From the NCBI RefSeq assembly GCF_036322585.1, contig NZ_AP024600.1:3100001-3164000 (forward strand): a stretch of 64,000 nt of DNA. Reading direction: 5' to 3'. The notes beneath the pieces are model-generated. The model was given only the letters and a program-made list of their open reading frames with translations, did not search any database and was not told where the DNA came from. Shown here piece by piece: positions 5,042 through 36,700 of the stretch. The stretch is from Luteolibacter sp. LG18. Its GTDB lineage: Bacteria > Verrucomicrobiota > Verrucomicrobiia > Verrucomicrobiales > Akkermansiaceae. The translations under genes were made by a program, and so were the position numbers. How positions within the stretch are numbered: the first letter of the stretch is position 1; every line of letters starts with the position of its first letter.

Positions 5042-6043
5042 ATGCCTGATTCCATTCTCGTGACCGGCGGAGCCGGCTATATCGGTTCCCACACGGTTCG
5101 TTTGCTCGCTTCCCAAGGTCGGAAGATCGTCGTTCTGGACAATCTCGTTTACGGCCACGAACAGGCCATCGTCGATGAGTCCGTGGTGCTTGTGAAAGGT
5201 GACGTGGGCGACCGCTCGCTGGTCGAGAGCCTTTTCGCCGAGCACGGGTTCGCTGCCGTGGTCCACTTCGCCGCCTACGCCTACGTGGGCGAATCGGTGA
5301 CCGATCCGCTGAAATACTACCGGAACAACACCGCCGAGCCGCTGGTGCTGCTCGAAACGATGCAGAAGCACGGCTGCAAGACCTTCGTCTTTTCCTCCAC
5401 CTGCGCCACCTACGGCGTGCCGGAGAGCATCCCGATCGTGGAGAGCAATCCGCAGCGCCCGATCAATCCCTACGGCCGCAGCAAGCTGATGCTCGAGTGG
5501 GTGCTCGAGGATTGCGGCCGCGCCTGGGGCCTGCGCAGCGCCTGCCTCCGCTATTTCAATGCCAGCGGCAGCTCCGCCGATGGCCTGATCGGCGAGGACC
5601 ACAACCCGGAAACCCACCTCATCCCGCGCGTGCTGATGGCCGTGACCGGGGAAATCGAGCACGTCGAGGTCTTCGGCACCGACTATGACACGCCCGATGG
5701 CACCGGCATCCGCGATTACATCCACGTCGAGGACCTCGCCGAGGCCCATGCGCTCGCCCTGGACCACCTGGTCGGCGGTGGGGAGTCCGTGAAAGTGAAT
5801 CTTGGCACCGGCGTCGGCGTTTCTGTTCGCCAAATCATCGATGCCGTGGAAGAAATTACAGGCAACAAGGTGCCGGTGAAGTATGGTCCGCGTCGTGAAG
5901 GCGACCCGGCGATGCTGATCGCGGACCCGTCCCAAGCCAAGGCGGTCCTTGGCTGGGAAGCCCGCCGCAAGGACGTGCGCGACATGGTTCGCCCGGCCTG
6001 GGCGTGGGCGAACGGCCCCCGCAAGGGGCGTTATGACCGCTGA
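5042..6043 (+). CDS. galE: UDP-glucose 4-epimerase
   Basis: GalE interconverts UDP-glucose and UDP-galactose, linking galactose use with surface polysaccharide synthesis. The 333-residue protein is the usual length for the family. It opens with the NAD-binding motif TGGAGYIGSH and has the short-chain dehydrogenase catalytic set: Ser119 in FSSTCATYG and Tyr144/Lys148 in NPYGRSK. The later motif LGTGVGVSVRQIIDAVEEI is also typical of GalE. The start at 5042 places the Rossmann motif right at the N-terminus; 43 upstream in-frame codons come from the repeat element. It could feed galactose released by the GH36 enzyme further along, though it is not in the same operon. Confidence 0.95.
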   Translation: MPDSILVTGGAGYIGSHTVRLLASQGRKIVVLDNLVYGHEQAIVDESVVLVKGDVGDRSLVESLFAEHGFAAVVHFAAYAYVGESVTDPLKYYRNNTAEPLVLLETMQKHGCKTFVFSSTCATYGVPESIPIVESNPQRPINPYGRSKLMLEWVLEDCGRAWGLRSACLRYFNASGSSADGLIGEDHNPETHLIPRVLMAVTGEIEHVEVFGTDYDTPDGTGIRDYIHVEDLAEAHALALDHLVGGGESVKVNLGTGVGVSVRQIIDAVEEITGNKVPVKYGPRREGDPAMLIADPSQAKAVLGWEARRKDVRDMVRPAWAWANGPRKGRYDR

Positions 6044-6133: not shown

Positions 6134-6832
6134 ATGAACAGCCGATCCTTTTCCCGCGCGGGGAAGTCCTCCTCGCGTCCCCCCACTGGCTTCTCGCTGG
6201 TGGAGTTGCTCACCGTGATTGCGATCATCGCGATCCTTCTCACCGTGGGAGCGGTTGGATTGGGCGGCATGACGGGCGGTAAGAACGTCAACAGCGCCGT
6301 GACCACGGCGGAAGCCCTGTTTGCCCAGGCGCGTGCGGAGGCCACCGGCCGCGCCACCCGCGCCTGCGTGCTGGTGGACATCAACGACCCCTCCGACCGC
6401 GTCAACTACCTGCGCCGCATGGTGGTGGCCTACGAGGAGATCGATCCCGCCACCAACCAGCCGGTGAAGGACAAGTGGGTGGTCACCGACCGCGGCGCGG
6501 TGCTTCCGGACCAGGTGTATTTCAGCAAGACCTACAGTAAGGGCGGCGATGGCCAGACGCTCGAGGAAATCACCCTCAGCGAGGACAACGTGAAGAAGCA
6601 GTTCGCCGGGAAGTATCTCAGCTACAAGTTCACCTCGGAAGGCATCAGCTCGGCCCCGGGTTCCACCTTCGTCGTCGGCTTCGGTGTCCGCCCGGGCACC
6701 AATGGCGAGCCGCGCGTGACCGGCAGCGCCAAGCGCGACTTCGGTGGCTTCGTCGTCTGGCGGAATGGCACCACCTCGCTGTTCCGCTCGCCCGACCAGG
6801 CCGGCATTCCTTCTTCCGTGACCAATTTCTAA
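6134..6832 (+). CDS. Verru_Chthon cassette protein D; GspH-like minor pseudopilin
   Basis: This 232-residue protein carries a class III (prepilin) signal: a basic leader, then TGFSLVELLTVIAIIAIL with cleavage after Gly and Glu at position 5 of the mature protein. The following segment (TTAEALFAQARAEATGRATRACV) resembles the GspH/FimT minor pseudopilins of type II secretion and type IV pili. It is the first of three tightly spaced genes (4 bp to the next), an order known from Verrucomicrobium and Chthoniobacter as the D-B-C-A cassette of unknown function. It should be processed by a prepilin peptidase and sit in the inner membrane or a pseudopilus tip. No prepilin peptidase or assembly ATPase is encoded in this window. 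Confidence 0.88.
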   Translation: MNSRSFSRAGKSSSRPPTGFSLVELLTVIAIIAILLTVGAVGLGGMTGGKNVNSAVTTAEALFAQARAEATGRATRACVLVDINDPSDRVNYLRRMVVAYEEIDPATNQPVKDKWVVTDRGAVLPDQVYFSKTYSKGGDGQTLEEITLSEDNVKKQFAGKYLSYKFTSEGISSAPGSTFVVGFGVRPGTNGEPRVTGSAKRDFGGFVVWRNGTTSLFRSPDQAGIPSSVTNF

Positions 6833-6836
6833 GTCC

Positions 6837-7598
6837 ATGACCACTCGTCCCAACCCACGCCGCGGTTTCACCTTGATGGAAACCGTGATCGCCATTGGCG
6901 TGCTGGCCGTGCTCCTGACCGCGTTCCTCGCGGTCTTCGGCCCCGCCACCGCCGGCATCCGTCGCGCGATCAGCGCCCAGGAAGCCGACCGCCTGTCCTC
7001 GGCGCTCGAAAAGGAGCTCGCCACGCTGCGTCCCAACGAAACCTACTCCGGCGCGTCCGGCAGCAAGGGAACCGCCTTCGACAAGGCCTTCGACTGGATC
7101 AAGAACGGCGCCGACAGCAACACCAAGCCGCTGCAGGGCACGATCCTCATCTACCAGTACCGCGCCGATCCGACCAAGATGCGCGAGGACGGCACGCTCT
7201 CCGCCTACGCCAGCGCTTCCTCCGGCATCGCCGGTTCGGACTACGTGATCCAGTCCGGCGTGCGCCGCCGCGAGGATTCGAAGAACCCGAAGAACAAGGA
7301 GTATCTCCAGGAGGACCTCAAGGCGCTGGAAGGCCGCGTCTTCGCCATCCGCACCACCCAGCTCGTCTATCAATCGGGCGGTGGCCTCGGCCTCGGCACT
7401 CCGGGCACGATCAAGGATCCGAAGCCCGGCGGCTCCGGCGGCGGGGATTCCGCCAGCTACCCGGAGGCGGTCATTGCCTTCTCCGCCGAGTTCTACGGCA
7501 TCCCGAGCACCGCCTACCAGTACATCACCGGCAGCGGCTTCGAAAAATCCACCCTGAAGAATCCGATCTTCACCCGCAACCTGGCGGCCCGCCGCTGA
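6837..7598 (+). CDS. Verru_Chthon cassette protein B; GspI-like minor pseudopilin
   Basis: The 253-residue product has a prepilin signal, RRGFTLMETVIAIGVLAVLL, with Glu5 present after the cleavage Gly. The next helix (ISAQEADRLSSALEKEL) and a variable beta-rich C-terminal part fit minor pseudopilins of the GspI type. It starts 4 bp after the stop codon of gene D, so the two are very likely translated together. A Gly-rich insert (GSGGGDSASYPE) lies near residue 200. Together with D and C it would supply the Glu5-containing subunits of a tip complex. The cassette B label rests on gene order, length and signal, not on a profile search. Confidence 0.83.
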   Translation: MTTRPNPRRGFTLMETVIAIGVLAVLLTAFLAVFGPATAGIRRAISAQEADRLSSALEKELATLRPNETYSGASGSKGTAFDKAFDWIKNGADSNTKPLQGTILIYQYRADPTKMREDGTLSAYASASSGIAGSDYVIQSGVRRREDSKNPKNKEYLQEDLKALEGRVFAIRTTQLVYQSGGGLGLGTPGTIKDPKPGGSGGGDSASYPEAVIAFSAEFYGIPSTAYQYITGSGFEKSTLKNPIFTRNLAARR

Positions 7599-7620
7599 GC
7601 CCCGGCTCTTTCCACCGATC

Positions 7621-8604
7621 ATGAAAACCCAATTTCGAGCATCGCTCCGCCGCGGTTTCACCCTGATGGAGCTCATGGTGGCCATGGCCATCACCACCAT
7701 CATCGTCACCATCCTGGTGGGCATCACCTCGGTGTCCGTCGAGGCCTGGCAGCGCTCCCGTTCCGAAGTCCGCGCCACCCGCCAGGGCAAGGCGATGACG
7801 GACTCGATGGCCGCCGACTTCCAGGCGATGGTCACCCGCCGTGGCAACACCTTTGAATGGGTGTACGCGAACCTGAAGAAGGACAGCGACCTGCCGGGCA
7901 ACTCGAAGGTGAAGAGCAACAACGCCGCCAGCCTGATCTTCTTCACCGCCGCCACCGACCGCTACGCCGGCACCAACGCCAAGGACATGGGCGGCGACGT
8001 TTCCTGCGTGTCCTACAAGCTCGACTTCAAGGACCCGGTCTCCGGGAACTCCTCGAACTACGATACCTTCGCGATGTACCGCCTGCTGGTGGAGCCGAAC
8101 GAGACCTTCACCTCGCTGCTCGGCCAGGCGGACCTCTACACCGCCTTCGGTTCCCGCGATGTGGCGCAGAAGCAGAACTTCGTCTGCGAGAACGTCTATC
8201 AGTTCACGCTCAAGTTCAACGTGGAGGTCTCCGTGACCACCGGCAGCGGCGCCACCGCGGTGACGACCAAGCAGATCGTGCCGGTGACCCTGTCCCGCGG
8301 CCCGTCCTCCTCCGGCAGCGGCGGCACCGGCACCACGGTGAACACCGCCCAGTCCTTGGAAGTCTTCGGCAACACGCTGAAGGTGATGGATTCCAGCAAC
8401 TCCGATTTCAAGACCGGCACCGTGACCGCCGACCAGATCAAGGCCGGCCGCCTGGTGTCCGTGGACATCTCGCTCACCGTCTTGACCGACGCCGGCATCA
8501 ACCAGATCCGCGTCCGCAGCTTCAAGAACGACACCGAGAAGGCCCAGTTCGTGGCGAAGAACTCCTACCAGTTCTCGAAGCTGGTGGAGATCACCTCGAT
8601 GTGA
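7621..8604 (+). CDS. Verru_Chthon cassette protein C; GspJ-like minor pseudopilin
   Basis: The 327-residue protein starts MKTQFRASLRRGFTLMELMV, a prepilin signal with Glu5, and continues with a long amphipathic helix (VEAWQRSRSEVRATRQGKAM, then TDSMAADFQAM). That segment resembles GspJ-type minor pseudopilins, which are usually the largest of the H/I/J set. It is third in the D-B-C operon, 22 bp after B, and is followed by a good rho-independent terminator, so the transcript ends here and does not include gene A. Gene A lies convergently on the other strand beyond a repeat array. Confidence 0.85.
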   Translation: MKTQFRASLRRGFTLMELMVAMAITTIIVTILVGITSVSVEAWQRSRSEVRATRQGKAMTDSMAADFQAMVTRRGNTFEWVYANLKKDSDLPGNSKVKSNNAASLIFFTAATDRYAGTNAKDMGGDVSCVSYKLDFKDPVSGNSSNYDTFAMYRLLVEPNETFTSLLGQADLYTAFGSRDVAQKQNFVCENVYQFTLKFNVEVSVTTGSGATAVTTKQIVPVTLSRGPSSSGSGGTGTTVNTAQSLEVFGNTLKVMDSSNSDFKTGTVTADQIKAGRLVSVDISLTVLTDAGINQIRVRSFKNDTEKAQFVAKNSYQFSKLVEITSM

Positions 8605-8626
8605 GATCGGGAGACAACGTTTCGAA

Positions 8627-8658
8627 AGAAGCCCGGCACGTAGGTGCCGGGCTTTTTT
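8627..8658 (+). terminator. Rho-independent terminator after cassette gene C
   Basis: A 9-bp stem (GCCCGGCAC at 8631-8639 with GTGCCGGGC at 8644-8652), a 4-base loop and six T residues follow the stop codon of the cassette C gene by 26 bp. Confidence 0.92.
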
Positions 8659-8669
8659 GTGATTGGATG

Positions 8670-9294
8670 GGTAGGGTCGCACCGCCGGGGCGACCGGGGG
8701 GAACGGTTGCGTCCGTTGCCACGGGCGCTTCCGATCCTCGTGTCTGTGGGGGCGGAGTCTGGTTCGCGGACGGCGTCCACCGCCCGGTCATCTCGGCGAG
8801 ATGACCCTACCTCCAGAGGCGCGCTGCAAAGGTAGGGTCGCACCGCCGGGGCGACCGGGTCGAACGGTAGCGTCCGCTGCCACCGGCGCTTCCGATCCTC
8901 GTGTCTGTGGGGGCGGAGTCGGGTTCGCGAACGGCGTCCACCGCCCGGTCATCTCGGCGAGATGACCCTACCTCCAGAGGCGATGCGCGGGGGTAGGGTC
9001 GCACCGCCGGGGCGACCGGGTCGTGAGGTCCCGTCCGCTACCACGAGCCCGTCCCATCCCTTCGTCTGTGGGGACGACATCCTCTCCGCGAACAACGTCC
9101 GCCGCCCGGTCATCTCGGCGAGATGACCCTACCTCCAGAGGCGGGCCGCAAAGGTAGGGTCGCACCGCCGGGGCGACCGGGTCGAACGGTTATGTCCGCT
9201 GCCACGGGCGCGTCCCATCGCTTTGTTTGGTGGGACGGTGTCCTGCTTGCGCACGGTGTCCACCGCCCGGTCATCTCGGCGAGATGACCCTACC
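8670..9294 (+). repeat. Tandem array of four 161-bp BIME-like units
   Basis: There are four units at 8670-8811, 8831-8972, 8992-9133 and 9153-9294, with an exact 161-bp period (142-bp core plus 19-bp linker). Each core begins GGTAGGGTC plus a hairpin closing GACCGGG and ends with the inverse: CCCGGTC, hairpin, GACCCTACC. The left hairpin has GGTCGC/GCGACC arms; the right one is the perfect palindrome GGTCATCTC-GGC-GAGATGACC. The ~85-bp centre varies between copies. The array sits between convergent genes (cassette C and the partner of cassette A). Frames across it encode only Arg/Pro/Thr-rich shadow peptides. Confidence 0.95.
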
Positions 9295-9322
9295 TCCAGA
9301 GGCTCGCCGCGCGGGCGAAACC

Positions 9323-10006
9323 TCACGGCTTCTCCGTGGGCGCGGGCAGGAACTCGTCCACCGCGCGGAAGGTGGTGGTGCCGTCCGTGGAGGTGAAGAA
9401 GAACACGTAGCTGCGCTGGAGGTTGTCGACCGGCCAGCGGGTGGTGCTGATGACGCGGTTCTTGTCGCCTTCCTGCACGGCGAAGGCCACGTCGTAGTAG
9501 GCGTTGTTCACCGGATTGGTCGGGCGGATCTTGCGGGCCTCGCCGGGGCGGAGGCCGACCTTGGTATCGCCCACCTTGCCGAGCACCGGCTGGGCCGAGC
9601 GGTTGATGAAGAACACGTCGCCGGACTTGAAGTCGGGATCATCGGTTCGCACCACCACCGGGGCGTAGGCGGAAGGCGGGGCGAGGACGAGGATCACGGC
9701 GAAGGACTTGCCATCCTCCGGCAGGGTCACCGGGCACAGGGTCACGCCCTTGTCGGCGGTTTTCAGCGTGAAGCCGCGGGCGGCGGCGGCCTGCGGTTCG
9801 GATAGCTGGTTGACCGGCAGGGTGAAGGCGGTGGACTTGTTGTCCCCCACCTGCATGACCACGTCGCCGAGGTTCGGCGGCACGCGTTCGGCCAGGAAGC
9901 GGACCTGCGGGCCTTCCTCCTTCTTCGAGGGAGTGGCGGGCGCGGGGGCTTGGGCGGCGAGGGGCTGGACGAGCACCAGCAGGAGTCCGAGGAGGCGTTT
10001 GGTCAT
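9323..10006 (-). CDS. Secreted partner of cassette protein A, copy 1
   Basis: The 227-residue product has a signal peptide (MTKRLLGLLLVLVQPLAAQA) and a beta-rich body of unrecognised family. It follows the cassette A gene by 38 bp in an A-partner operon. A homologue follows the second A gene (14938-15645). Aligned stretches include FKSGDVFFINRSAQPVLGKV against FSKGQMLWFNLSPFPIGGQI, and the end regions STTRWPVDNLQRSYVFFF against CSTVWHHDPAARGVIFVYM. The repeated pairing implies that the partner works with protein A, perhaps as a periplasmic chaperone or assembly factor; that role is inference. The start was chosen for the signal peptide; an in-frame extension upstream overlaps gene A and is not protein-like. 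Confidence 0.8.
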   Translation of the reverse strand: MTKRLLGLLLVLVQPLAAQAPAPATPSKKEEGPQVRFLAERVPPNLGDVVMQVGDNKSTAFTLPVNQLSEPQAAAARGFTLKTADKGVTLCPVTLPEDGKSFAVILVLAPPSAYAPVVVRTDDPDFKSGDVFFINRSAQPVLGKVGDTKVGLRPGEARKIRPTNPVNNAYYDVAFAVQEGDKNRVISTTRWPVDNLQRSYVFFFTSTDGTTTFRAVDEFLPAPTEKP

Positions 10007-10044
10007 GGCGTGGATTGGAACAAAAAGCGGGCGGGCAGCAGGGC

Positions 10045-13000
10045 TCAGGACTCGCGGGAATCGACCCAGCGGAAGGAGACGATCTCGAAGCGGCGGCCGA
10101 AGCGCTGGTTGAGCGAGCTGATCTTGGTGTAGTCCTTGTCGACGGCGTCGACCGGATCGACGAAGTCGGGCGTGCGCTGGACGACGGCCTCGCACCAGGC
10201 GCGGGCGATCACTTTGCCATCGGCATCGGTGCGGTCGCCGTAGGCGCGGATCACGAAGGAGTCCGAGCGGGCGGAGAGCACCGGGGCGATCGGGGTGAGG
10301 ATGTCGGCCTGGCTGACCACGCCGGGGGCACCGGTGGAGATCGGGCCATCCTCGGCCTTCGGGAAGGCGAAGCGGCCGGAGACGGCGGAGGACACGGCGC
10401 GGCTCTGGCGGTAGTCGCTGTTGATGGTGTTCGAGCCGAAGTCCAGTGCGCTCTGGATGGCACCGCTGCGGGCGATCTCTTCATTGGAGCCGACGCGGCG
10501 GTTCACGAAGTCGGCCAGCGAGATGAACGGGCCGCGTTTGCGGACCTCGCGGACGATGTCGCGGGCGAGCGACTCGATTTGTTCGTCGGTGAGCGTGCGA
10601 CGGCCGGACCATTGGTCGGCGGCCTGGACGTCGGCGGAGGGCTTGATGAGCAGGTCCTGCGGCACGCGCAGGCCGGCCACCAGGGTGGTGCCGCCTTCGC
10701 TCTTGAGGGATTCCTTGCCGGTGGCGTCGGCGACGACCACCGGGCGGTCCCGCAGGGCACCGAGCAGGCTCTTCCATGCTTCCACGGAGGTCGAGTTCAC
10801 GTTGAACATGCCATCCACGCGGATCAGGCTGGCGATGATGGCGGTGGCCGCGGTGGAGGGGGTGGTGCCGGAGAAGTAGGTGGAGACGAGGGTGTCCGCC
10901 TTCTGGCCGCGGAGCTCGGCCTTGTAGGCGGCTACGGGCAGCGGGGTGGCACCGGTGAAGAACTCCTGGGCGACCTGCTTCTGGGTACGGCTGCGGGAGT
11001 AGCCGTCGACGGTCTGCGGTGCGATGCCCGAGCAGAACCAGGTGTCCCACAGCGCCTGGTTGGCGAGGTAGGAGTGGTCGGCCAGCGGGCGACCGCCGGA
11101 GAGGGTGCCATCGGTCTTGCTGGCGGCCAGCACCGGGGACGCGGCGGAGTTGCCGATCGCGTGGGCGATCTGCGGCAGCATCGGCTCGCGGGCATTGAGG
11201 GAGGCGTAGCCGTAGCGGGGCTTGACGATGTCGAAGCCGTTGGCAAAGGAGTGCTGGAAGGCGGCGAGCGAGACGAGCGGCTCCCGCGGGATCGAGTGGG
11301 TGATCACGGTGCTGCAACCGCTGGCGGCATCCATGCCGCCGCCGAAGTAGGCGTTGCCGGAGGTGCTGACCTCGAGCTTGGTGTTCTTCCAGCTCAGCAG
11401 CGGGTCCACGGTGTATTCGTAGGGCAGCACGTCGCGCTCCTTGTCGGTGAGATCGTAGAAGTCGACGTGGAGGGCCTTCGGGTTGAAGCGGGCGAGGCTG
11501 CGGGTGCCGCGCTCTCCGCCTTTCTCGGTCTTGGCATTGAAGGAGAAGAGGACGAAGGGCTGCTTCTGGGCCGAAAGAGCGGTGGAGGTCAGGCTGCGGG
11601 TTTCCGAGGGACCGGTGATGGTGCGGAAGATGCCGCTGAGGCGGGAGACGTTCGCGTAGAGGCGCTCGGAGGACTGCTTGGTTCCGGCGCCGGTCTCGGT
11701 GCGGATCGGGTCGGAGACCTTGAGGCGGCGGTTGCCGAAGTCCCAGTCGATGCTCATGTTGCCATAGCCCAAGCTGGCGGAGGAGGCACCGCGGTCGTCA
11801 CCGATGTAGGTCTCGTGGTGGGTCAGCGAGAAGTGGCGGGTGTGGCTCGCGCCGCCGGTGATGCTGTGGCCGCTCGAGCTGGTGGCTCCGGCGGTGAGGT
11901 CGTTCGGCTGGAGCGAATAGGTGATCGAGTCGGTGGCGGCGAGATCGACGTATTGGCTGGTACGGGTGCGCACCGGCATGTAGACGCCGCCGACGTAGTT
12001 GAAGCCCTTGTTGGCATCGAGCTTGTGGACCCCGCCCGAGATGGAGGCGCGGGAGACTTCACCGCCGGTGGATTGGGACATCTTCACCACCTCGCCTGGC
12101 TTCAGGACGATCTGTTGGGCGACGCCCATGCGCATGCTGATGAAGTTCGAGTCGCCATCGGAGGTGGTGGTGGCATCGGAGAGGCTCGCGGCCAGCGGGC
12201 AGGTCAGGGTGGTGGCGCCCTTGGTGATCACCATGTCATAGGGGATCTGCCAGTACTTCACCGTGAGGAAGGTGGAGGTGGGGAAGACCACCGGCACGTC
12301 CAGCGGGTTCCAGAGGGTGACGATGGGATCCGCGTAGAGGTGGAGGCGGTTCACCGTGGTGGTGCCGGAGGTCACGGGGCGGGTCTTGAAGGACAGCGCC
12401 ATCTGGTAGCTGACGAAGACCGGCTGCTTCAGGTAGAAGTTCTCGTCGGCGGCACAGTCGGTGGGGTTCGCGGCGAGCTGGAGGTAGGGCGTGCCGGAGG
12501 GCATGGCGCCGCCGGTGGTGTAGGTGAAGGAGCCGCCGCGCTTGAGCTGCTTGTAGATGTTGTAGTAGCTCCACAGTTCCTGCTGGTTGATGCCGTTCTC
12601 GCCGCCGACCTGATAGAGGGCGGTGGAGGCGGGATCCGGCGCGGTGTCGCGCTGGAGTTCCATCGAGAGGTCCTTGCGGAAGCCGCCGGTGCGGACGTTG
12701 GTGAGCAGGCCGCGGTTCTGGGTGGTGAAGTCGTGGTAGAGCGCGCGGGTGTTTTCCGGCTTGTCGGCGATGAGCGCGCTGCTCTGCCAGGTGGGCAGGC
12801 GGCCGAGCTTCGGATCGGTGGTGGTCACCGCGGCGAAGGGCTTGGTGGTGCCGGTGCCGGCGTTCTTCAGCGCGTAGGCCGGGGCGGCCTGCTGGTCGGA
12901 GCGGACTTCGGCGAGCGCGGTCGGGGTCTTGGCGGCGGGAGCCACCTGGGCCTTGGTGCCGAGGTCGCTGACCCACCAGCCGAGGCGGTCGTTGGTCTTG

Positions 13001-13554
13001 GCGGCGGAGGTGTCCTTGCGGGTGATCAGCGGCACGCGCACGGGCTGGCCGGTGCTGCCCACGGTGTTGGCGGTGGCGATCTCCACGGAGTCACCGGTCA
13101 CGGCGGAGATGGCGAAATCGGGGTTCTTGAGCTTGGTGGGATCACCCGACACCAGCCACTGCTGAAACTCGGGAGCCGGGCGGGCATCGCCGGGCTTGCC
13201 ATCGGCCCAGGACTTGTAACCGCGCACCCAATTGCGCTGGGCGATGGGGGGCTTCGATTCGTCCACGGTATCGCCCTGGATCTGATCGGCAGTGGTGCTG
13301 ACGCGGGTGTCCGGGCCGAGGGTCTTCTGGAGATCGCCGATGGCCATGATCAGGGCCATGCGGGCATTGGCGCGGGCCATTTGCATCGCCTCACCGCGGG
13401 TGGAGGTGCGCAGGGTGATGCCGGAGAGCCCCAGCAGGCCGAGGGCGATGGTCGAAAGCAGCACCATCATCAGCAGGGTGATGATGAGCGAGAAGCCCCG
13501 GCGGCGCAGGCCGGGTTTCTTGCCGAAGGCGGGAAACTGAGTTCGGGGTTTCAT
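10045..13554 (-). CDS. Verru_Chthon cassette protein A, copy 1; giant GspK-like pseudopilin
   Basis: The 1169-residue protein has a prepilin-like signal ending in Gly20, then FSLIITLLMMVLLSTIALG. Position 5 of the mature protein is Ile, not Glu, as in the tip pseudopilin GspK. Near residue 914 is GMFNVNSTSVEAW, comparable to the INVNTA region of GspK, followed by a helical segment (REVRKRGPFISLADFVNRR). The C-terminus ends in a conserved block (CEAVVQRT...FGRRFEIVSFRW). GspK itself is only ~300 residues, so most of this protein is extra domain. The ATG at 13554 gives MKPRTQF, like MKTQF in gene C. A 56-bp promoter-like block lies 117 bp upstream. Confidence 0.87.
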   Translation of the reverse strand: MKPRTQFPAFGKKPGLRRRGFSLIITLLMMVLLSTIALGLLGLSGITLRTSTRGEAMQMARANARMALIMAIGDLQKTLGPDTRVSTTADQIQGDTVDESKPPIAQRNWVRGYKSWADGKPGDARPAPEFQQWLVSGDPTKLKNPDFAISAVTGDSVEIATANTVGSTGQPVRVPLITRKDTSAAKTNDRLGWWVSDLGTKAQVAPAAKTPTALAEVRSDQQAAPAYALKNAGTGTTKPFAAVTTTDPKLGRLPTWQSSALIADKPENTRALYHDFTTQNRGLLTNVRTGGFRKDLSMELQRDTAPDPASTALYQVGGENGINQQELWSYYNIYKQLKRGGSFTYTTGGAMPSGTPYLQLAANPTDCAADENFYLKQPVFVSYQMALSFKTRPVTSGTTTVNRLHLYADPIVTLWNPLDVPVVFPTSTFLTVKYWQIPYDMVITKGATTLTCPLAASLSDATTTSDGDSNFISMRMGVAQQIVLKPGEVVKMSQSTGGEVSRASISGGVHKLDANKGFNYVGGVYMPVRTRTSQYVDLAATDSITYSLQPNDLTAGATSSSGHSITGGASHTRHFSLTHHETYIGDDRGASSASLGYGNMSIDWDFGNRRLKVSDPIRTETGAGTKQSSERLYANVSRLSGIFRTITGPSETRSLTSTALSAQKQPFVLFSFNAKTEKGGERGTRSLARFNPKALHVDFYDLTDKERDVLPYEYTVDPLLSWKNTKLEVSTSGNAYFGGGMDAASGCSTVITHSIPREPLVSLAAFQHSFANGFDIVKPRYGYASLNAREPMLPQIAHAIGNSAASPVLAASKTDGTLSGGRPLADHSYLANQALWDTWFCSGIAPQTVDGYSRSRTQKQVAQEFFTGATPLPVAAYKAELRGQKADTLVSTYFSGTTPSTAATAIIASLIRVDGMFNVNSTSVEAWKSLLGALRDRPVVVADATGKESLKSEGGTTLVAGLRVPQDLLIKPSADVQAADQWSGRRTLTDEQIESLARDIVREVRKRGPFISLADFVNRRVGSNEEIARSGAIQSALDFGSNTINSDYRQSRAVSSAVSGRFAFPKAEDGPISTGAPGVVSQADILTPIAPVLSARSDSFVIRAYGDRTDADGKVIARAWCEAVVQRTPDFVDPVDAVDKDYTKISSLNQRFGRRFEIVSFRWVDSRES

Positions 13555-14937: not shown

Positions 14938-15645
14938 TCAAGGCTGGGCGGTGAGTTCGACGGGCCGGGAATCGGCGAAGCCCTTGATGCGCGGGGCGCG
15001 GCTGTTCGGGGACATGTAGACGAAAATCACGCCACGGGCGGCGGGGTCGTGGTGCCAGACGGTGGAGCAGATCATTTCGGCGGGTTTTCCCTCCGCCGGG
15101 ACGTAGCCGATCTTCACGTTGTAGTCCTCGAAGCCGCTGGCGGGGGGCTCGGCGATGGCGCGGGAGTTTGCCTTGAGGTTCAGCGTCTGGCGGCCGATCT
15201 GCCCGCCGATGGGGAAGGGGCTGAGGTTGAACCAGAGCATCTGGCCCTTGCTGAACTTGTCCGGATTGGCATCGATGAGCTGGATGCGCACCGGTGCCAC
15301 CGGGTTGGCGGGATCGCTGGCGAGGAGCAGGTAGCAATCGCGGACGCCTTCCGCCAGGGCGGCGGCGGGGGCATTGGCGGGCAGCGGCTGGTCCTTCGCC
15401 GGGAGCGAGGTGAGCAGCCGCAGGGTGAGGTTGCCGGGCGGGAGCGCGTAAACGTTGGAGAAGTTCATGCTCGGCAGCTCCACTTCCTGGGTGGCGGTGC
15501 CATCGCTGAGGAAGAGGGTCTTGGGCGCATTGTCCGGCGGCGAAAGGAAGAGGACGCGGCAGGTGCGGGCGGGTTTCGGTGTTTCCGCGGCACCGGCGGA
15601 AGCCGCGAGCGTGAGGGCACCGAGGAGGAGAAGGAAGGAACGCAT
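14938..15645 (-). CDS. Secreted partner of cassette protein A, copy 2
   Basis: The 235-residue protein has a signal peptide (MRSFLLLLGALTLAASAGAA) and a beta-rich body. It is a diverged homologue of the protein at 9323-10006, sharing order and character of motifs across the last ~120 residues, and it follows the second cassette A gene by 24 bp. No enzyme motifs are visible. The matching A-partner arrangement in both operons is the main clue to its role; it probably acts in the same extracytoplasmic complex as the neighbouring A protein. It ends close to the large inverted repeat, with no clear terminator between. Confidence 0.8.
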   Translation of the reverse strand: MRSFLLLLGALTLAASAGAAETPKPARTCRVLFLSPPDNAPKTLFLSDGTATQEVELPSMNFSNVYALPPGNLTLRLLTSLPAKDQPLPANAPAAALAEGVRDCYLLLASDPANPVAPVRIQLIDANPDKFSKGQMLWFNLSPFPIGGQIGRQTLNLKANSRAIAEPPASGFEDYNVKIGYVPAEGKPAEMICSTVWHHDPAARGVIFVYMSPNSRAPRIKGFADSRPVELTAQP

Positions 15646-15669
15646 GGGACGGATGGGGATGGGACCGGA

Positions 15670-18600
15670 TTAGATTTCGTTGCGGCCGAGCCAACGGAAC
15701 GAGACGACGTCGAAATGGCGGCCGAAGGTCTTGTTCACCGTGCTGCGGAGGACCTCGGCGGAGTCGGCCTGGTCGGCCGGATCGCAGTAGTCGCGGGTGC
15801 GGCGCACGACGGCCTCGCAGGTGGCGGTGGCGATGACCTTGCCCTCGCTGTCGCGGGCGTCGCCGTAGGCGCGGATGGTGAAGGTGTCGTCGCGGGCGGA
15901 CAGGATCGGGGCCAGCGGGCGGAGCACATCGGCCTGACGGGTCCAGCCGGGGAGGCCGTAGGCACCGAGACCGGCGGCGGCCTCGGGGAACTGGTAATCG
16001 GCGCCGGGGACGTCGGTGGCGTACTTGTTCTGGGACTCGTAGTTGTCGACGAGGCCGCTGTAGAAGCTGGAGTCCTTCTCGAGCTGGTTGAGCGCGGCCT
16101 GGATGGCTCCGGCGATGGCGAGATCCTTGTCGGTGGAGAGCTGGCGGTTCACGAACTCGGAGAGGGAGAGGAACGGGCCGCGCTTGCGGACCTGCTCGAC
16201 GATCTTCTGCGCGAGCTCGTCGAGGAGCTTGTCGTCCAGCTTGCGGTAGCCGGTGAATTCGCTGGCGGCCCCGCCGGTGCCAGCCTCCACGTTGCCGGCC
16301 ACGCTGGCGCGGCTCACGGCGTGGTCGGTGTTGCCGGAGAGGGTGATGGCGCCGGTCTCGCTGTAATAGGGGACCTTCTGGTTGCGGGCGTGGCCGAGCA
16401 GGGCGCGCCAGGCGGCGACGGAGGTGGAGTTCACGTTGAACATGCCCTCGACCTCCAGGCGGGAGGCGATGGTGCGCCAGGAATTCGGGGTATCGACCTG
16501 TTCCTGGAACACGCCGTTGGCGCCGCTGCCGGACTGGGAGGCACGCACGGCATCGATCACGATCGGCTTGTAGGCGCGGTTGACGAGCGGGGTGGTGCCC
16601 TTGAGGAAGTTCACGAAATTGCTCTTCATGAGGGCGGTGCTGCCGCCGTAGCCGCCCGCGGTGCCGCCGGCGATGGAGGAGAAGAACCAGTCGTCGAAGA
16701 GCAGGTGATTGGCGCAGTAGGAGTCGTCGTGCTGGAGGTTGGTGGCGGCGGTGGAGCTGCCATTGACCACGGCGTTCGGCGGGAACAGCGGGGAGGCGTC
16801 GGAATTGCCGATGACGTTGTAAGCGAAGGGCGGCACGGGGTTGCCGAAGCGCATGTCCCAGTTCTGGAGCTCGGCGAGCGAGGCGAGCGGCTTCACGGGC
16901 AGGTCCGCGGCGATGCCGCGGGTCATGCCGCGGGCGGTCATGGCGGTGAGGATGTAGCCCTTGGTGTCCGCCACGTTCGGCACGGTGTCATCGAAGGCGG
17001 CGTGCTTCAGGAAGCTGTAGTCGATGGCCGCGTTCACCTGGGCGCCGGTGCCGGGGTAGTTCTTCTGGACGGCGGGATTGGCCACGTCCATGTCGCCCAT
17101 GGTGGAGTAGTTGGCCAGCGGGTTGGCCTGGGTGAAGCCTTTCGATGGGGCGTAGCTCTGGTCCGGGCCGAAGAGGTTGTTCGCCACGCGCAGGCCGGTC
17201 ACCAGCGAGAAGAATGGGTCGGCGGTGTTGCGGATGGCGGAGAGCGGCTTGGAGTCGGCGAGGTTCTGGAGGTTCGGATAGGTCTGGGCGGCGGCGGGGG
17301 AGATGAGCATCTGGTACTCCATCTCGTAGCCATCGGTGCCGGCCTTGCGGTAAGCCTTGTCCTCGGTGAGCTCGTCATCGCGGACGACGAGGCGGTAGCC
17401 GACGACGTCCTTGCCCTTGTAGGAGAAGGTGTTGTTGAACTTCGGCTCCAGTTTCATCTTCGCGGTGCCGTCCAGGGTGTAGATCCAGGACGTGGGATCG
17501 GAAGCCTTGGTCAGAATGAAGAGGTGGCCCATGTCCGTGCGGTAGCCGGGGGCCATGGGCAGGCGGTGGGATGGGAGGTTTTGGTTCGACGGGCTGACCA
17601 CCAGCGTCGCGCCGGGTTGGAGATCGGGCACGGTGGTGAGCTCGTAGCGCAGCGTCTTGATCGAGGAGACAGCGAAGGGGGCCACGTCGGTGTAGTTCTT
17701 GCTGCCGGTCAGGAGGCTGCGGTAGCCGGAGATCTTGTGGTCCGGATTGCCGGTGGTGACCTCATACTTGAAGGCCACCGGGAAGGGGCTGGGGTTGGCC
17801 TCGTCCCCCACGGTGAAATAGAGCGGCCCGATGTTGGTGAGGCTGACGTTGTAGGGATTCCAGAGGGTGAACACCGGGGTCATCAGGATGCCCGGGGTGA
17901 ACTGCTTGCCATCCGAGGCGATGCGGCCCCAGTAGGAGAAGACCCATTGGACGCGGGCGACGACCGGGCGCAGGCGGACCTTGTGGAGGTAGGTCGCGGG
18001 GAGGCCGACTTCCTTCAAGGCGGTGGCCTTCAGACTGAAGGGCCCGGAGCCGCCAAGCTGCTGGTAGGTCATGGCGTAGTTGCGGAGATTGGCCCAGCTC
18101 GCGACCGCGCCTTGCTGGTCCCACGCGCGATCCGAGGCGCTGCCGCGGTAGCCGGCCCACGGGTAGAGCAGGGAGCCGGCGGGGCGGACATCGGTGGCGG
18201 TGGCGCGGGAAACGGAGTCGTCCTTGTCCGGGGTGATGCGGAAGAGCTTCAGGTCGGAAGTCGGAAGGTTGTCGTAGTTCTCGGTGAAGAGGGACATGTC
18301 CTTCCGCCAGCCGCCGGTGGCGGTGTTGGTGAGCAGGCCGGTGGAAACGGTGCTGAGGTCGTGGAAGTGGGTGCGTGAGGCTTTGTCGGAGCTGGCCTGC
18401 GCGATGAAATCGGTCTGCTTCAGGCTGCTGGCCTTGGCGGCGGGCTGTGCGTCGGCGAGCAGCGAGGACATGCCGAACTCCTCGGGATCGGCGGTCGAGT
18501 GGCTCTGGAGGTTGCCGGCCCATTCGCCGTCCAGTTTCGGGGTGTAGGGCTGGGGCAGGCGCGCCTTTTCGTTCTCGCCGCCCACCCACCAGGCGTAGCT

Positions 18601-19182
18601 GCCCGGGATGGACTTGTTGTCGATCTTCACGGGAGCGAGGTGGATCTGCTGGCGGGCCTGGCCGTCGCCCACGGTGTTGGTGCCGATGAGCGGCACGGTG
18701 CCCTCGGCGGCGGTGGTGGTCGGCGGGGTGGAGCTGTCGGCCAGCGCATTGGGTGCGCCGGACACCAGCCAGCTCAGGAAACGGGAGGCCTTCTTGGTCT
18801 TGTAGTTGCCGGGGGAAACGGGGCGGCCGGCGGCGGCTCCGCCCTGCTCGTGGTCCTCGCCTTCCCAGCTCCGCCAGGCCCCGAGGACCGGCGGGCTGTT
18901 TTCCTGGAGGACATCGGCGCGGGCGGTGACGCGGGTGTCCGGGCCGGTTTGCTTCTGGAGCTCGCCGATGGCCAGCATCAGGGCCAGCCGGGCATTGGCG
19001 CGGGCCGTTTGCTGGGCCTCGCCGCGGCTGGACGCGCGCAGGCTGATGCTGGAAAGCCCGAGCAATCCGAGTGCGATGGTGGACAGCAGGATCATCATCA
19101 TCAGGGTGACGATCAGCGAGAAACCACGGGCGGATCGGGCTCGGGATCCGGTGGAGATGGGCTGCTGGGCAAGGGCTTTCAT
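15670..19182 (-). CDS. Verru_Chthon cassette protein A, copy 2; giant GspK-like pseudopilin
   Basis: This is a paralogue of the protein at 10045-13554 and almost exactly the same length (1170 residues). The prepilin signal again ends at Gly20 and is followed by FSLIVTLMMMILLSTIALG, without Glu5. The helix SSRGEAQQTARANARLALML, the block GMFNVNSTSVAAWRALLG near residue 913, and the C-terminal FGRHFDVVSFRWL all match copy 1, while the middle is strongly diverged. That pattern suggests shared assembly ends and a variable exposed centre. The ATG at 19182 gives MKALAQQ. The same 56-bp block as in copy 1 lies 135 bp upstream. No extra D, B or C genes accompany this copy. Confidence 0.87.
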   Translation of the reverse strand: MKALAQQPISTGSRARSARGFSLIVTLMMMILLSTIALGLLGLSSISLRASSRGEAQQTARANARLALMLAIGELQKQTGPDTRVTARADVLQENSPPVLGAWRSWEGEDHEQGGAAAGRPVSPGNYKTKKASRFLSWLVSGAPNALADSSTPPTTTAAEGTVPLIGTNTVGDGQARQQIHLAPVKIDNKSIPGSYAWWVGGENEKARLPQPYTPKLDGEWAGNLQSHSTADPEEFGMSSLLADAQPAAKASSLKQTDFIAQASSDKASRTHFHDLSTVSTGLLTNTATGGWRKDMSLFTENYDNLPTSDLKLFRITPDKDDSVSRATATDVRPAGSLLYPWAGYRGSASDRAWDQQGAVASWANLRNYAMTYQQLGGSGPFSLKATALKEVGLPATYLHKVRLRPVVARVQWVFSYWGRIASDGKQFTPGILMTPVFTLWNPYNVSLTNIGPLYFTVGDEANPSPFPVAFKYEVTTGNPDHKISGYRSLLTGSKNYTDVAPFAVSSIKTLRYELTTVPDLQPGATLVVSPSNQNLPSHRLPMAPGYRTDMGHLFILTKASDPTSWIYTLDGTAKMKLEPKFNNTFSYKGKDVVGYRLVVRDDELTEDKAYRKAGTDGYEMEYQMLISPAAAQTYPNLQNLADSKPLSAIRNTADPFFSLVTGLRVANNLFGPDQSYAPSKGFTQANPLANYSTMGDMDVANPAVQKNYPGTGAQVNAAIDYSFLKHAAFDDTVPNVADTKGYILTAMTARGMTRGIAADLPVKPLASLAELQNWDMRFGNPVPPFAYNVIGNSDASPLFPPNAVVNGSSTAATNLQHDDSYCANHLLFDDWFFSSIAGGTAGGYGGSTALMKSNFVNFLKGTTPLVNRAYKPIVIDAVRASQSGSGANGVFQEQVDTPNSWRTIASRLEVEGMFNVNSTSVAAWRALLGHARNQKVPYYSETGAITLSGNTDHAVSRASVAGNVEAGTGGAASEFTGYRKLDDKLLDELAQKIVEQVRKRGPFLSLSEFVNRQLSTDKDLAIAGAIQAALNQLEKDSSFYSGLVDNYESQNKYATDVPGADYQFPEAAAGLGAYGLPGWTRQADVLRPLAPILSARDDTFTIRAYGDARDSEGKVIATATCEAVVRRTRDYCDPADQADSAEVLRSTVNKTFGRHFDVVSFRWLGRNEI

Positions 19183-21168: not shown

Positions 21169-21956
21169 GTAGGGTCAACACGCCGAGATGACCGGGCGGT
21201 GGAGGTGGTTCGCGGGGAAGAAGGTCGCCCGATTGGATGAGGGGATGGGACGGGCCGTCGGCAGCGGACGGGACCGTTCGACCCGGTCGCCCCGGCGGTG
21301 CGACCCTACCTTTGCAGCGGGCCTCTGGAGGTAGGGTCATCTCGCCGAGATGACCGGGCGGTGGAGATGGTTTGCGGGGAAGAGGCCGTCCCAGTGGACG
21401 AAGGGGTGGGACCCACCCGTGGGAGCGGACGGGAACGCTAGACCCGGTCGCCCCGGCGGTGCGACCCTACCTTTGCGGCGGGCCTCTGGAGGTAGGGTCA
21501 TCTCGCCGAGATGACCGGGCGGTGGAGGTGGTTCGCGGGGAAGAAGGTCGCCCGATTGGATGAGGGGATGGGACGGGCCGTCGGCAGCGGACGGGACCGT
21601 TCGACCCGGTCGCCCCGGCGGTGCGACCCTACCTTTGCAGCGGGCCTCTGGAGGTAGGGTCATCTCGCCGAGATGACCGGGCGGTGGAGATGGTTTGCGG
21701 GGAAGAGGCCGTCCCATCAGACGCAGGGATGGGATGCGCCGTCGGCAGCGGACGCTACCATTCGACCCGGTCGCCCCGGCGGTGCGACCCTACCTTTTGA
21801 AGCGGGCCTCTGGAGGTAGGGTCATCTCGCCGAGATGACCGGGCGGTGGAGGTGGTTCGCGGGGAAGAGGCCGTCCCAGTGGACGAAGGGGTGAGACGCA
21901 CCCGTGGGAGCGGACGGGAACGCTAGACCCGGTCGCCCCGGCGGTGCGACCCTACC
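21169..21956 (-). repeat. Tandem array of five BIME-like units (inverted orientation)
   Basis: Five units begin near 21169, 21330, 21491, 21653 and 21815 with a 161-162-bp period, in reverse orientation to the array at 8670. Each begins GGTAGGGTCATCTCGCCGAG with its hairpin and ends at the GCGACC side hairpin plus CCTACC. The first unit is damaged at its left end. Units alternate between two centre types (one with GATTGGATGAGGGGATGGGA, one with CAGTGGACGAAGGGGTG), suggesting that pairs of units were duplicated together. The array separates the GH39 and GH88 genes. Confidence 0.95.
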
Positions 21957-27478: not shown

Positions 27479-27783
27479 GGTAGGGTCGCACCGCCGGGGC
27501 GACCGGGTCGAATGGCTGGGTCCGCTGCCAACGGAGCGTCCCATCCCTTCGTCCAATCGGGCGGCGTTTTCCATGCGAACGAATCTCCACCGCCCGGTCA
27601 TCTCGGCGAGATGACCCTACCTCCAGAGGCGGGCCGTAGAGGTAGGGTCGCACCGCCGGGGCGACCGGGGCAAATGGCCGCGTCCGCTGCCAACGGAGCG
27701 TCCCATCCGTTCGTCCAATCGGGCGGCGTGTTTCTTGCGAACGAATCTCCCCCGCCCGGTCATCTCGGCGAGATGACCCTACC
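27479..27783 (+). repeat. Two BIME-like units between convergent genes
   Basis: Units at 27479-27621 and 27641-27783 have the same architecture and 161-bp spacing as the array at 8670. The first begins directly after the TAA of the ABC transporter gene. The last bases of the second (CCCTACC) contain the TAG stop codon of the LacI-type gene on the other strand. The two units thus fill the convergent gap completely. Confidence 0.94.
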
Positions 27784-33799: not shown

Positions 33800-36700
33800 A
33801 TGAAACCCAAGCGCATCGCGTTCTCCCTCCTCACCACCTTCTCCCTGGCTTGCAGCCTGGTGCCCGCGGCACGCGCGGCGAACATCACCTTCACGCTCAC
33901 GCCGACCACCGGCACGTGGAGCACGGACACCTGGTCGACCGCGATCAACACGATCGCCGCCGGTGACATCGCGGAGAGCAACACGGTGGCCAGCACCAGC
34001 ACGGCGCTCGATACTCCGGTCACGCTCGGCCAGCTCCAGACCGGCACCACCGCCGGGGCGATCTGGTCCCTCACCGGCACCGCGAACACCATCACCCTGA
34101 ACGGCACCGGCCTGACCTCGAACGCCTTCGGAAACGCCGGCGTGGCCGCCATCGTTTCCCGCAATACCGGCGGAAACCTCACCGTCGCCCCGCCGCTGAG
34201 CTTCGGTGCCACGGTGCTCGACGCGGGCACGACCAGCACCGGCACGCTGACCCTTTCCGGCGGCCTCACCGCCACCGCGGCGCAGACGCTGAACATCCGC
34301 AACAACGGCACCGGCGGCACCACCATCTCCGGCCCGGTCGGTGCGACCGGCAGCGCGATTTCCATCGCGAACCGCGGCACCAGCACCGGTACCACGGTCA
34401 TTTCCGGCGCGCTCGGTGCGAACGTCGCCAGCGTCACCCAGAACAGCACCACCTCCGCGCTCACCCTTTCCGGCGCGAACGCCTCGTTCGTGGGTTCGGT
34501 CAGCGTGGTGACCGGCACGCTCAACACCGGCTCCACCGGCTCGCTCGGCGGAACCACCTCGCTCTCCCTCAATGGCGGCACCGCGATCAATGCCACGGTG
34601 GCTGGCGTGACCAGCGCGGGCAATCCCACCATCGCGCTCAACGGCAACGTCACCTACAACGGCAACACGCTGAACCTCGGCACCGGCGCGGTGACGCTCT
34701 CCGGCCTGAACGTCGGCATCATCACCAACTCGACGAACAACCTCACGATCGGCGGCAACATCAGCGGCTCCTCGTCGCTCACGAAGAACGCGCAGAGCAA
34801 CGGCTCCTTCACCAACATGGGCGCGCTGGTGCTCAATGGCACCAACTCCTACACCGGCGGCACCATCATCCAGCAGGGCCAGATCCAGTTCGGCTCCGCC
34901 GCCTCCATCCCCGCCACCGGCAGCGTGCTGCTCGCCCCGCTCGCCGTGAACTCGGTGAACTACGAGGGTGCCGCCGCGATCTTCAACTTCGGCTTCACCC
35001 AGACCGAGCTCAACAAGCTCTCCACCGCCTCCGTCGGCATCGCCGGTCTCGGCGCGAACAACGCCAGCGCGCTCGATTTCACGAACTACCCCACCGTCAG
35101 CCTCGGCACCCAGGGGAACTTCACCTACAGCGGCACGCTCACGCCGTGGTCGAACGGCACCACCGCCACCTACTATCTCGGTGGTAGCGGCAACCAGGCG
35201 GCGAACGCGAACAGCGTGCTCACCGTTTCCTCCGTGCTCGGAAACGCGGGCTCCATCGCCACCGGCCTCACCGTCGATCCCACCTTCGCGGGCTTCGGTC
35301 CGGGCAGCGTCACGCTCAACGCCGTGAACACCTACACCGGTGCCACCCGCGTGAACACCGGCACGCTGAAGCTGGACTTCGCGGGCAACGCGGGCAGCAA
35401 CACCAGCAACCTCATCTCCAGCAGCTCGGCGCTCACGCTCGCGAACTTCGGCACGCTCAACGTGGCGGGCAAGTCGGCGAACACCAACAGCCAGACCTTC
35501 GCCGGTCTCACCCTGGCGGGCAGCAATTCCACCATCAGCGCCACCCAGAACAGCGCCACCAGCCTGACCGCCGCCTTCGGCGTGATCTCCCGCACCTCCA
35601 ATGGCACGGTGACCTTCAGCTCGGTGCCCACCACCGGCGGCTTCACCACGACCAACGCGCTGGACTCGTCCGGCCTGCTCGGCGCGTGGGCCACCGTCGG
35701 CACCGGCACCGCCACCCGTTACGCCACCATCACCGGCGGCAACATCGCCGCCTACTCCGCGGGCACCGCCGCCGCCACCGCCGCGCTGCTCACCGATGTC
35801 ACCGGCCTGGTGAACTACGATCTCGCCGCCGGTGGCTCGCTTCCGGGCACCACCACGCTCTCCACCATCCGCTACACCGGCGCGGCCGGCAGCACCGACA
35901 TCGGCGCTTCCAACCTCACGCTCAATGGCGTGCTCAACGCCGGCACCGGCGCGGCCACCATCACCAGCAGCAGCACCGGCAGCGTGGTGATCGGATCCAC
36001 CAGGGACTTGGTGCTGAACTCCGCGAACGCCGCGATCTTCATCAACGCCCCGATCGTCGACAACGGCCTCGGTGCTTCCTCGGTGACCGTCACCGGCAAC
36101 AGCGGCACCCAATACGCCGTGTTCCAGAAGGCCAGCACCTACACCGGCGGCACCTTCATCAATGGCAACGTCGCCGTGCAAGCGGCCACCGGCGGCTTCG
36201 GCACCGGCACCGTCACCTTCAGCGGCGGCCAGCTCAATGCCGAGACCAACGCCATCACCATCGCCAACCCGCTGGTGTTCACCCAGGGCACCTCGACCAC
36301 GCTCAATCCCAACAACCAGAGCCTCACCCTCACCGGCGCGGTCACCGGCACGGGCACCATGTTCGTCGGCGACGGCGGCTCGTTCAGCTCGCTCATCCTG
36401 AGCTCGGACATGAGCGGCTTCAACGGCACCATCATCTTCAACGCTGGTGGCAACAACGGTGACAACTTCCAGATGGGGAACACTTCGGCGGCGAACAACA
36501 ACCTCTCCCGCACCACCGTCATCGGCCTGAACGCCGGCACCCGCCGCTGGAACCTCGGCTCGGCTCCCTGCCTCCAGGTCGGCGCGCTCTCCGGCTCGCT
36601 GACCCTGATCACCGGCGGCACCCTCCAGGTGGGCGCGCTGAACACCGACACCAGCTTCGGCGGCGGCACCGCCAGCAACATGGCCTACACCAAGGTCGGC

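Follow-up and report, generated by a model that had tools for sequence, protein, structure and literature searches.

Organization of the locus

Within a 64,000-nucleotide stretch of Luteolibacter sp. LG18 (contig NZ_AP024600.1, positions 3,100,001 to 3,164,000; the whole stretch is referred to as the window, and positions are counted from its first nucleotide) lie three genes, D, B, and C, that code for prepilin-like proteins, together with two genes for a giant protein, A, each accompanied by a gene for a putatively secreted partner, X (Table 1). The D-B-C trio is on the plus strand and converges with the two A-X pairs on the minus strand, the second of which spans 14938-19182, just upstream of A; a four-gene operon is absent. 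The sequence-only reading of this DNA had treated D, B, C, and A as one Verru_Chthon cassette corresponding one to one to GspH, GspI, GspJ, and GspK, the proteins of a pseudopilus tip in the type II secretion system (T2SS). As a single cassette in the window this does not hold, with A on the minus strand and both a repeat array and X between C and A. Related genomes and loci are given below by our own labels (G and L numbers, respectively), G000 being the LG18 genome.

Table 1. Window coordinates of the D-B-C trio, the two A-X pairs, and features within them
Feature	Position	Strand	Description
D	6134..6832	+	232 amino acids (aa); Glu5 prepilin, Verru_Chthon-D-like, weakly GspH-like minor pseudopilin
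B	6837..7598	+	253 aa; Glu5 prepilin, Verru_Chthon-B-like, possibly GspI-like
C	7621..8604	+	327 aa; Glu5 prepilin, Verru_Chthon-C-like, GspJ-like; single copy in genome
161-bp tandem repeat array	8669..9310 (end approximate)		between C and X1
X1	9323..10006	-	227 aa; signal-peptide-like start; predicted two immunoglobulin (Ig)/transthyretin-like beta-sandwich domains; directly downstream of A
A	10045..13554	-	1169 aa; predicted GspK-fold pseudopilin without Glu5; several hundred additional residues inside fold
A residues 22-79	13318..13491	-	long N-terminal helix (pilin alpha-1); GspK profile match
A residues 373-726	11377..12438	-	variable part, putative Ig-like beta-sandwiches
A residues 811-1169	10048..11124	-	probable conserved C-terminal part of GspK-like core (boundary inferred)
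FNVNSTS motif, A residues 917-923	10786..10806	-	likely counterpart of GspK xNVNTA motif
X2	14938..15645	-	235 aa; X homologue downstream of A2; matched by relatives-only X profile
A2	15670..19182	-	1170 aa; second A paralogue, no Glu5; 31% identity to A over alignment

Protein A has a predicted GspK fold

The predicted structure of A points to an enlarged equivalent of GspK, as the sequence-only reading had proposed for this protein of about 1170 residues. The AlphaFold2 model, built with 76 sequences, has a mean predicted local distance difference test (pLDDT) score of 88.6 and a predicted template modeling score of 0.90, and VIA-align superimposes it on two GspK chains: XcpX (5vtm_X; Z 11.8, 3.3 Å, 224 of 259 residues, spanning A residues 57-1166) and Escherichia coli GspK (3ci0_K; Z 11.5, 3.1 Å, 240 of 280 residues, spanning A residues 49-1166). 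The best non-GspK chain has a Z of only 3.3. Foldseek also ranks 3ci0_K, the GspK of the GspI-J-K complex, first among 350,542 chains, although not significantly (E 0.13), with XcpX at rank 40. As the ~240 aligned residues cover nearly the whole A chain, the remaining residues are additions within the core, which, judging by conservation, is probably formed by roughly residues 20-80 and about 811-1169. An additional beta-rich part is clear in the model, and residues 373-726 give weak VIA-align rows (Z 2-3.3) with Ig-like matches; apart from the two GspK rows, the rows for A cover mainly these residues, and the absence of other families there means little. Mean pairwise identity along A is 0.56 for residues 20-80, 0.39 for residues 811-1169, and 0.16 for residues 373-726, the lowest of five blocks.

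Family-wide features of A follow the same lines. Glu5 is absent from all 99 open reading frames (ORFs) whose N terminus is readable by profile, including 20/20 in the LG18 genome and 79 of the 94 ORFs in relatives, in agreement with its reported absence from the window protein; the 15 unreadable ones comprise 14 without an N-terminal match (nine of these are cut by a contig end) and one with a gap. For the A profile and its HHalign comparisons, the X survey, block identity, linkage, and the FN[VI]N counts, the relatives are represented by 74 A genes, the subset of the 94 ORFs that pass a start filter, which itself forbids Glu at position 5. The FN[VI]N motif is present in 93/93 A proteins tested, and an xNxNxA-type motif is found in 20 of 24 collected GspK proteins, with one looser match and none in three; the A motif is thus likely the counterpart of the GspK xNVNTA motif. 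The FNVNSTS sequence reported near residue 914 of the window protein is indeed there, at residues 917-923.

Profile comparisons give the same assignment with less force. HHalign matches the A helix to GspK with an E of 1.1e-5 (probability 82%) and the C-terminal strands with an E of 3e-4 (probability 39%), or 0.001 (21%) with the GspK helix removed, with column-reversed decoys at E of 0.43 and 0.73; the profile-profile check of the C-terminal part suggested at the outset thus finds GspK, albeit weakly. The NCBIfam GspK model matches 17 of the 20 A proteins in alignment A1 (E<=0.01; 19 from LG18 and one truncated protein from G040), the sole printed match being N-terminal. The window protein scores 18.1 bits against a curated cut-off of 130, and we thus name it GspK-like rather than GspK. 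We note that this cut-off is harsh in the phylum, being exceeded by a protein in only 2 of 115 genomes; the ordinary-sized GspK of LG18 itself scores 73.5. There is no Pfam match for A at E<1 (scanned without the first Met), and hence no Pfam prepilin N-terminal signature; PDB sequence searches yield nothing useful for A, and PHROGs has no match for A, X1, or X2. PF03934 was discarded as a finder of GspK or A, most of its matches being, by eye, other HhH-type proteins. Records of A homologues are from Verrucomicrobiota, often from Akkermansiaceae or allied groups (Luteolibacter, Haloferula, and Roseibacillus, for example).

D, B, and C as probable minor prepilins

Each of D, B, and C starts with a type IV prepilin signal that has Glu at +5, as first noticed from the sequence, and the mapping of the four proteins onto GspH-I-J-K is firm for A, good for C, and suggestive for B and D. 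The HHalign scores of C are 90.7 with GspJ, 45.7 with GspI, 33.4 with GspH, and 19.1 with GspK, and with the helix removed the GspJ score is 31.4 against 11.1 for a decoy (probability 22%). The equation of C with GspJ is therefore well borne out, and because C falls below the curated NCBIfam cut-off (20.5 against 64.85 bits) we refer to it as GspJ-like without filing it as GspJ. For B, the proposed match to GspI is only suggestive, at 54.5 against 47.1 for GspJ, and the helix-free comparison (13.9 against 10.5 for a decoy) has nothing clear beyond the helix. For D, 24 of 26 family members match the GspH model weakly (E<=0.01), but HHalign favors GspJ (52.1) over GspH (39.1), the GspH profile being made of only two sequences. 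PDB sequence searches with D, B, and C give helix matches to pilins at best.

Among the 30 members of the B family, XpsI matches 19, PilV matches 7, and GspI matches 2; among the 33 members of the C family, PilV matches 21, and HpsC, a cyanobacterial polysaccharide-secretion pseudopilin, matches 32, as one of four models tied at that number. The PilV and HpsC matches bear on the kind of filament concerned, as they lend some weight to D-B-C-A forming the tip of a type IVa pilus, of the FimU-PilV-PilW-PilX kind, and not of a T2SS pseudopilus, in which the module of A, perhaps together with X, would take a PilY1-like adhesin role. Having a variable module and an additional secreted partner would also suit display more than a piston, in line with the modular pilins described in PMC8179133 (this and the other papers below are cited from excerpts of their text). 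We regard this as possible but on balance unlikely, as A matches GspK in its predicted fold and, like GspK, is devoid of Glu5.

Just upstream of D-B-C, at window positions 5042-6043, is a galE-like gene (labeled from the start of its protein), with the same arrangement in many relatives. Together with the HpsC matches to the C family, this neighbor makes a link to polysaccharide export possible.

Relationship to the Verru_Chthon cassette

The cassette named in the sequence-only reading is recognizable in the families, while the window proteins are outside its curated limits. The same-letter models match 26/26 members of the D family (TIGR02596, E<=0.01), 18/30 of the B family (TIGR02598), and 33/33 of the C family (TIGR02599), but the window proteins score 23.5 of the required 70 bits for D, 15.1 of 51.4 for B, and 30.4 of 256.5 for C, with D below the curated cut-offs of both TIGR02596 and GspH. 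Membership of the window A in TIGR02600 was rejected, with no match at E<1. In alignment A1, TIGR02600 matches 14 of 20 A proteins weakly (E<=0.01); matches in genomes of this genus are nearly all limited to model positions 1 to 60-80, far below the cut-off, and a true TIGR02600 protein is found in one genome of the genus, G023.

Profiles of the window-type D, B, and C proteins each score best on the same-labeled gene in 6/6 TIGR02600-type loci, where labels were given by size and order, with a narrow margin for B in L278. On these profile comparisons the D-B-C trio is a relative of the catalogued Verru_Chthon trio, outside its formal limits. Without its helix, D scores 17.4 against TIGR02600-type D (decoy 11.6) in one direction and 31.1 (decoy 11.0, probability 37%) in the other. 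HHalign of window-type and TIGR02600-type A proteins matches the helix (E 1.7e-9), with the C-terminal part collinear but insignificant (E 0.13, probability <1%).

The two types of locus are alike in that A is giant and without Glu5 in both, and the order D-B-C-A is also seen in the TIGR02600-type locus L278. They differ in that every window protein is under its curated cut-off, that the A families are only weakly alike beyond the helix, and that TIGR02600-type A genes are usually accompanied by prepilins of their own, unlike most window-type A genes: at least two Glu5 prepilins are present within 6 kb of 11/15 TIGR02600-type A genes, compared with 1/20 in LG18 and 0/74 in relatives (whose 74 A genes have a mean total flank of 9.4 kb). 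D-B-C and A are not on one strand in the window, but opposite strands are not exclusive to it; in 2 of 11 linked TIGR02600-type loci (L279 and L290) the prepilins are opposite A, and opposite strands alone thus do not rule out a cassette.

A single D-B-C trio and many A genes

The LG18 genome codes for 20 A genes (grouped from 23 pieces), against one C match (E<=0.001), and the single C indicates a single D-B-C trio. With few A genes near prepilins as well, a dedicated one-to-one tip, as initially suggested, is thus not supported for this genome. In 59 related genomes there are 0 to 26 A-matching pieces each, these being pieces and not gene counts, and in most genomes of the genus C gives a single strong match, in some cases split into two or three pieces. 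Our own gene caller was trained on the LG18 genome and missed genes in relatives with low G+C content, for which tblastn and profiles were used instead. Recent duplication is suggested by two close copies of the window A, located at 2.74 and 3.40 Mb and sharing 88 and 83% identity with it.

Among 112 genomes of the order, A is present in 37 (E<=1e-40) and C in 38 (E<=1e-25), with both in 35, A alone in 2, C alone in 3, and neither in 72. When the region is read, D-B-C turns out to adjoin A directly in both genomes scored as A-only (G232 and G233). The genes are on one strand in several genomes, as D-B-C-A-X in G051 and G232, as D-B-C-A in G227 (where the contig ends inside A) and G233 (where B is weak), and as A-X-D-B-C in G040; G237 has A-X-C plus a separate trio. 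In the 19 trio regions of other genomes that were read, A is contiguous in G051 and G040 and within ~10 kb in G032; the remaining 16, which include some short contigs, show no A.

In LG18, no other Glu5 prepilin is encoded within 6 kb of 18 of the 20 A genes, and AlphaFold2 folds A alone with high confidence. Both observations would fit A proteins that are stand-alone, membrane-anchored modular prepilins outside any filament, their adjacency to D-B-C being historical. We find this very improbable, as conservation within A is highest in the helix and Glu5 is consistently missing, and a mere anchor would hardly need either.

The partner protein X

An X homologue follows 20/20 A genes of LG18, both by position and by a profile built from relatives only (E<=1e-3). 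In relatives, there is an ORF at the X position after 70 of the 74 A genes, with none after two and the other two at contig edges; the X profile matches 66 of these 70 ORFs, but 65 of the 70 were used in building it. No X was found in G233 (E<=0.01), nor in the sister-genus A regions L340 and L342. The AlphaFold2 model of X has a pLDDT of 92, and its best fold matches are to the extracellular part of the peptide transporters PepT1/2 (Z 8.2-13.7), followed by the common Ig/transthyretin-like sandwich. The top match is the PepT2 chain 7pmy_A (Z 13.7, 178 residues aligned), from which we do not infer a function. X1 has no NCBIfam, Pfam, or PHROGs family above threshold, and X2, scanned in PHROGs alone, likewise has none. 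X appears to be a fast-diverging family of secreted two-domain beta-sandwich proteins that follow A genes.

The array next to X1 is part of a dispersed intergenic repeat with a period of 161-162 bp, present in the window at 8669-9310, 21283-21956, 27479-27668, and 53055-53243. Its 28-base core has 13 copies in the window (12 exact and one with a single mismatch), compared with none in 100 shuffles.

A proposed shared base with many caps

We think it probable that D, B, C, and A serve as the minor subunits in a type 4 filament, either T2SS-like or type IV pilus-like, and form a tip of the H-I-J-K type in which a single D-B-C base is shared by many A caps. Support comes from the GspK fold predicted for A, and from the Glu5 pattern, the copy numbers, the operons in other genomes, the pairing of A with X, and the way variation in A is concentrated in its middle. 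The tip complex of type 4 filaments consists of the minor subunits H, I, J, and K; it is capped by a subunit without Glu5, and the filament is built from it (PMC10191384), and the T2SS tip is also reported to recognize substrates (PMC6211770). By analogy, A, with its predicted GspK fold and without Glu5 as in the capping subunits of such tips, would be the cap; after cleavage by prepilin peptidase, its helix and sheet would connect it to C and B, and a filament powered by a GspE/PilB-type ATPase would carry it. The additional residues between the helix and the conserved C-terminal part would be held out ahead of the filament, with the variable middle as the part presented, whether for display at the outer membrane or for pushing through it, and X may act on the module as its chaperone or partner.

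The operon D-B-C-A(-X) would be the older state, from which the A-X pair has presumably multiplied and scattered in the family of LG18 with D-B-C staying single. One H-I-J-like base could then take any of many giant K-like caps interchangeably, each with its own variable module and secreted Ig-domain partner X. We put at about even chances the further proposition that a constant D-B-C base with ~20 giant GspK-fold caps, each with its own X, permits tip switching through cap gene expression, only the cap position having been multiplied.

Assembly components, the presence of which in related genomes had been set beforehand as a test of the idea, are widespread: a T2SSE-family ATPase is encoded in 59/59 related genomes and a prepilin peptidase in 57/59, and one prepilin peptidase gene was found in LG18. 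The LG18 genome also has a T2SS-type pseudopilin operon (L081; G000:C1:4724000-4743000) with G, H, I, J, and K and a secretin-like gene, identified mostly by order and size, in which GspK is of ordinary size, about 300 aa (G000:C1:4730987-4731730, E 4.2e-20). Gene labels in this genome (galE, GspG-J, L, M, and secretin) are readings of sequence, order, and size; the GspK label, which comes from a family search, and the prepilin signals rest on searches.

The existence of this operon with its own GspK raises the alternative that A proteins are substitutes for GspK in the ordinary T2SS, pairing with its GspH, GspI, and GspJ, and that D-B-C forms a distinct group of minor pilins serving some other purpose. 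Genomes with C and no A (G088, G153, and G231) or with D-B-C and no match to the window A (G031) are in keeping with this, as is one A-X pair downstream of a conserved ATPase-ATPase-platform-pilin operon (L064; G000:C1:516000-535999). However, no A is present in the 19 kb read around the LG18 T2SS pseudopilin operon, and D-B-C adjoins A on one strand in five genomes. The adjacency at L064 was rejected as a general link, as A is at the same operon in 0/20 relatives, although in two of them the sequence is too short for a verdict (the stretch ends <0.5 kb past the pilin gene in L321 and L330; the pilin is unmatched in L325). Substitution for the T2SS GspK is thus improbable, though we hold it to be less so than stand-alone prepilins.

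Several observations nonetheless weigh against a tip with a shared D-B-C base. The genome does have an ordinary T2SS G-H-I-J-K set, which A could join instead, and A is not in an operon with D-B-C in the window, where, given its two close copies elsewhere, its place beside the trio may be coincidental. The placement of B and D among pseudopilins is poor, and the HHalign probabilities for the C-terminal match of A to GspK (39 and 21%) are low. C occurs without A (E<=1e-40) in G088, G153, and G231, of one sister genus, although the full trio was read only in G153; with G031, such trio-bearing genomes indicate that the trio may have work independent of A. Conversely, six A-bearing genomes of the 59 are without a C match at E<=1e-15 (G012, G020, G021, G024, G027, and G029), five of which are <90% complete and one, G029, 92%. 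The co-occurrence of A and C is in part shared ancestry, such that genome counts are not independent, and the operons in families f2, f4, and f5 are stronger evidence than these counts. Lastly, Pseudomonas aeruginosa xcpX mutants grew on lipid agar and xcpV and xcpW mutants did not (PMC6211770), indicating that a GspK-type subunit need not be essential.

Comparison with known filament tips

The proposed shared-base tip resembles the GspK/XcpX tip in the predicted fold of its cap, the missing Glu5, the xNVN motif, the Glu5-bearing companions, and a GspJ-like C. It differs in the size of A (1169 aa versus about 300), with several hundred additional residues and putative Ig-like parts, in the 20 A copies versus one C, in the secreted partner X, and in the score of A, far below the GspK cut-off. 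The A gene is also outside the T2SS gene cluster, with an ordinary-sized GspK in the T2SS-type operon of the same genome.

GspK itself is described as a pilin with an inserted alpha-domain (PMC8179133), and the modular pilins of the same report, such as Streptococcus sanguinis PilB, similarly have a functional module on a pilin core, suited to the tip. The PilB module is located after the pilin part, whereas the additions in A are inside the GspK core and the gene is in 20 copies. In Myxococcus there are three clusters of PilY1 and minor-pilin genes (PMC13190605), and the Kil pilus has alternative tips with variable ends on one filament (PMC12075869), as we propose here. The Kil system does so with four complete minor-pilin sets, in contrast to LG18, where the base trio stays single and multiplication is confined to the cap gene and its partner. 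Modular pilins, GspK itself, and exchangeable complete tips are thus already known; amplification of just a GspK-like cap against one base trio is not evident in the excerpts of open-licence literature searched. Among open-licence papers we found none on the Verru_Chthon cassette or its TIGR numbers, and, by title or start of abstract, nothing on this gene set among those on Verrucomicrobia pseudopilins.

The proposed tip would give a concrete and testable function to a large family related to the NCBIfam-named cassette protein A. Across the phylum, many sampled genomes have very large reading frames headed by GspK-like N termini, and the idea may reach beyond the genus. If a shared base is correct, bacteria can vary a filament tip by multiplying the cap gene alone, and the A proteins would provide a natural series of enlarged caps with which to ask what the extra domain of GspK is for.

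Genes near A and other observations

The sequence-only reading suggested that the enlarged A might handle giant surface proteins such as the PATR proteins nearby, and this partnership was rejected, there being no clear preference for PATR neighbors and no surplus of large ORFs. Five of the 20 A genes are within 10 kb of a PATR match, compared with 4.05 expected under rotation (P 0.38), and 11/20 are within 20 kb, compared with 6.9 expected (P 0.075), with a P of 0.068 for the median distance; the PATR positions used were those of 150 scored matches out of 477 candidates, and A positions are approximate midpoints. Large ORFs are not more common near A, with 7 large non-A ORFs in 17 A regions and 10 in 20 control regions (the window excluded).

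The genome carries at least 150 PATR matches, and the window has large repeat proteins, each with at least one, at 29206-33438, 33800-38701, 39283-41655, and 58318-62241; the protein at 39283-41655 also has, by eye, a PEP-CTERM-like end. Elsewhere in the genome, at about 8619-10563 of L082 (G000:C1:3686000-3703000), four small tandem prepilin genes (139-146 aa) have nearly identical N termini.

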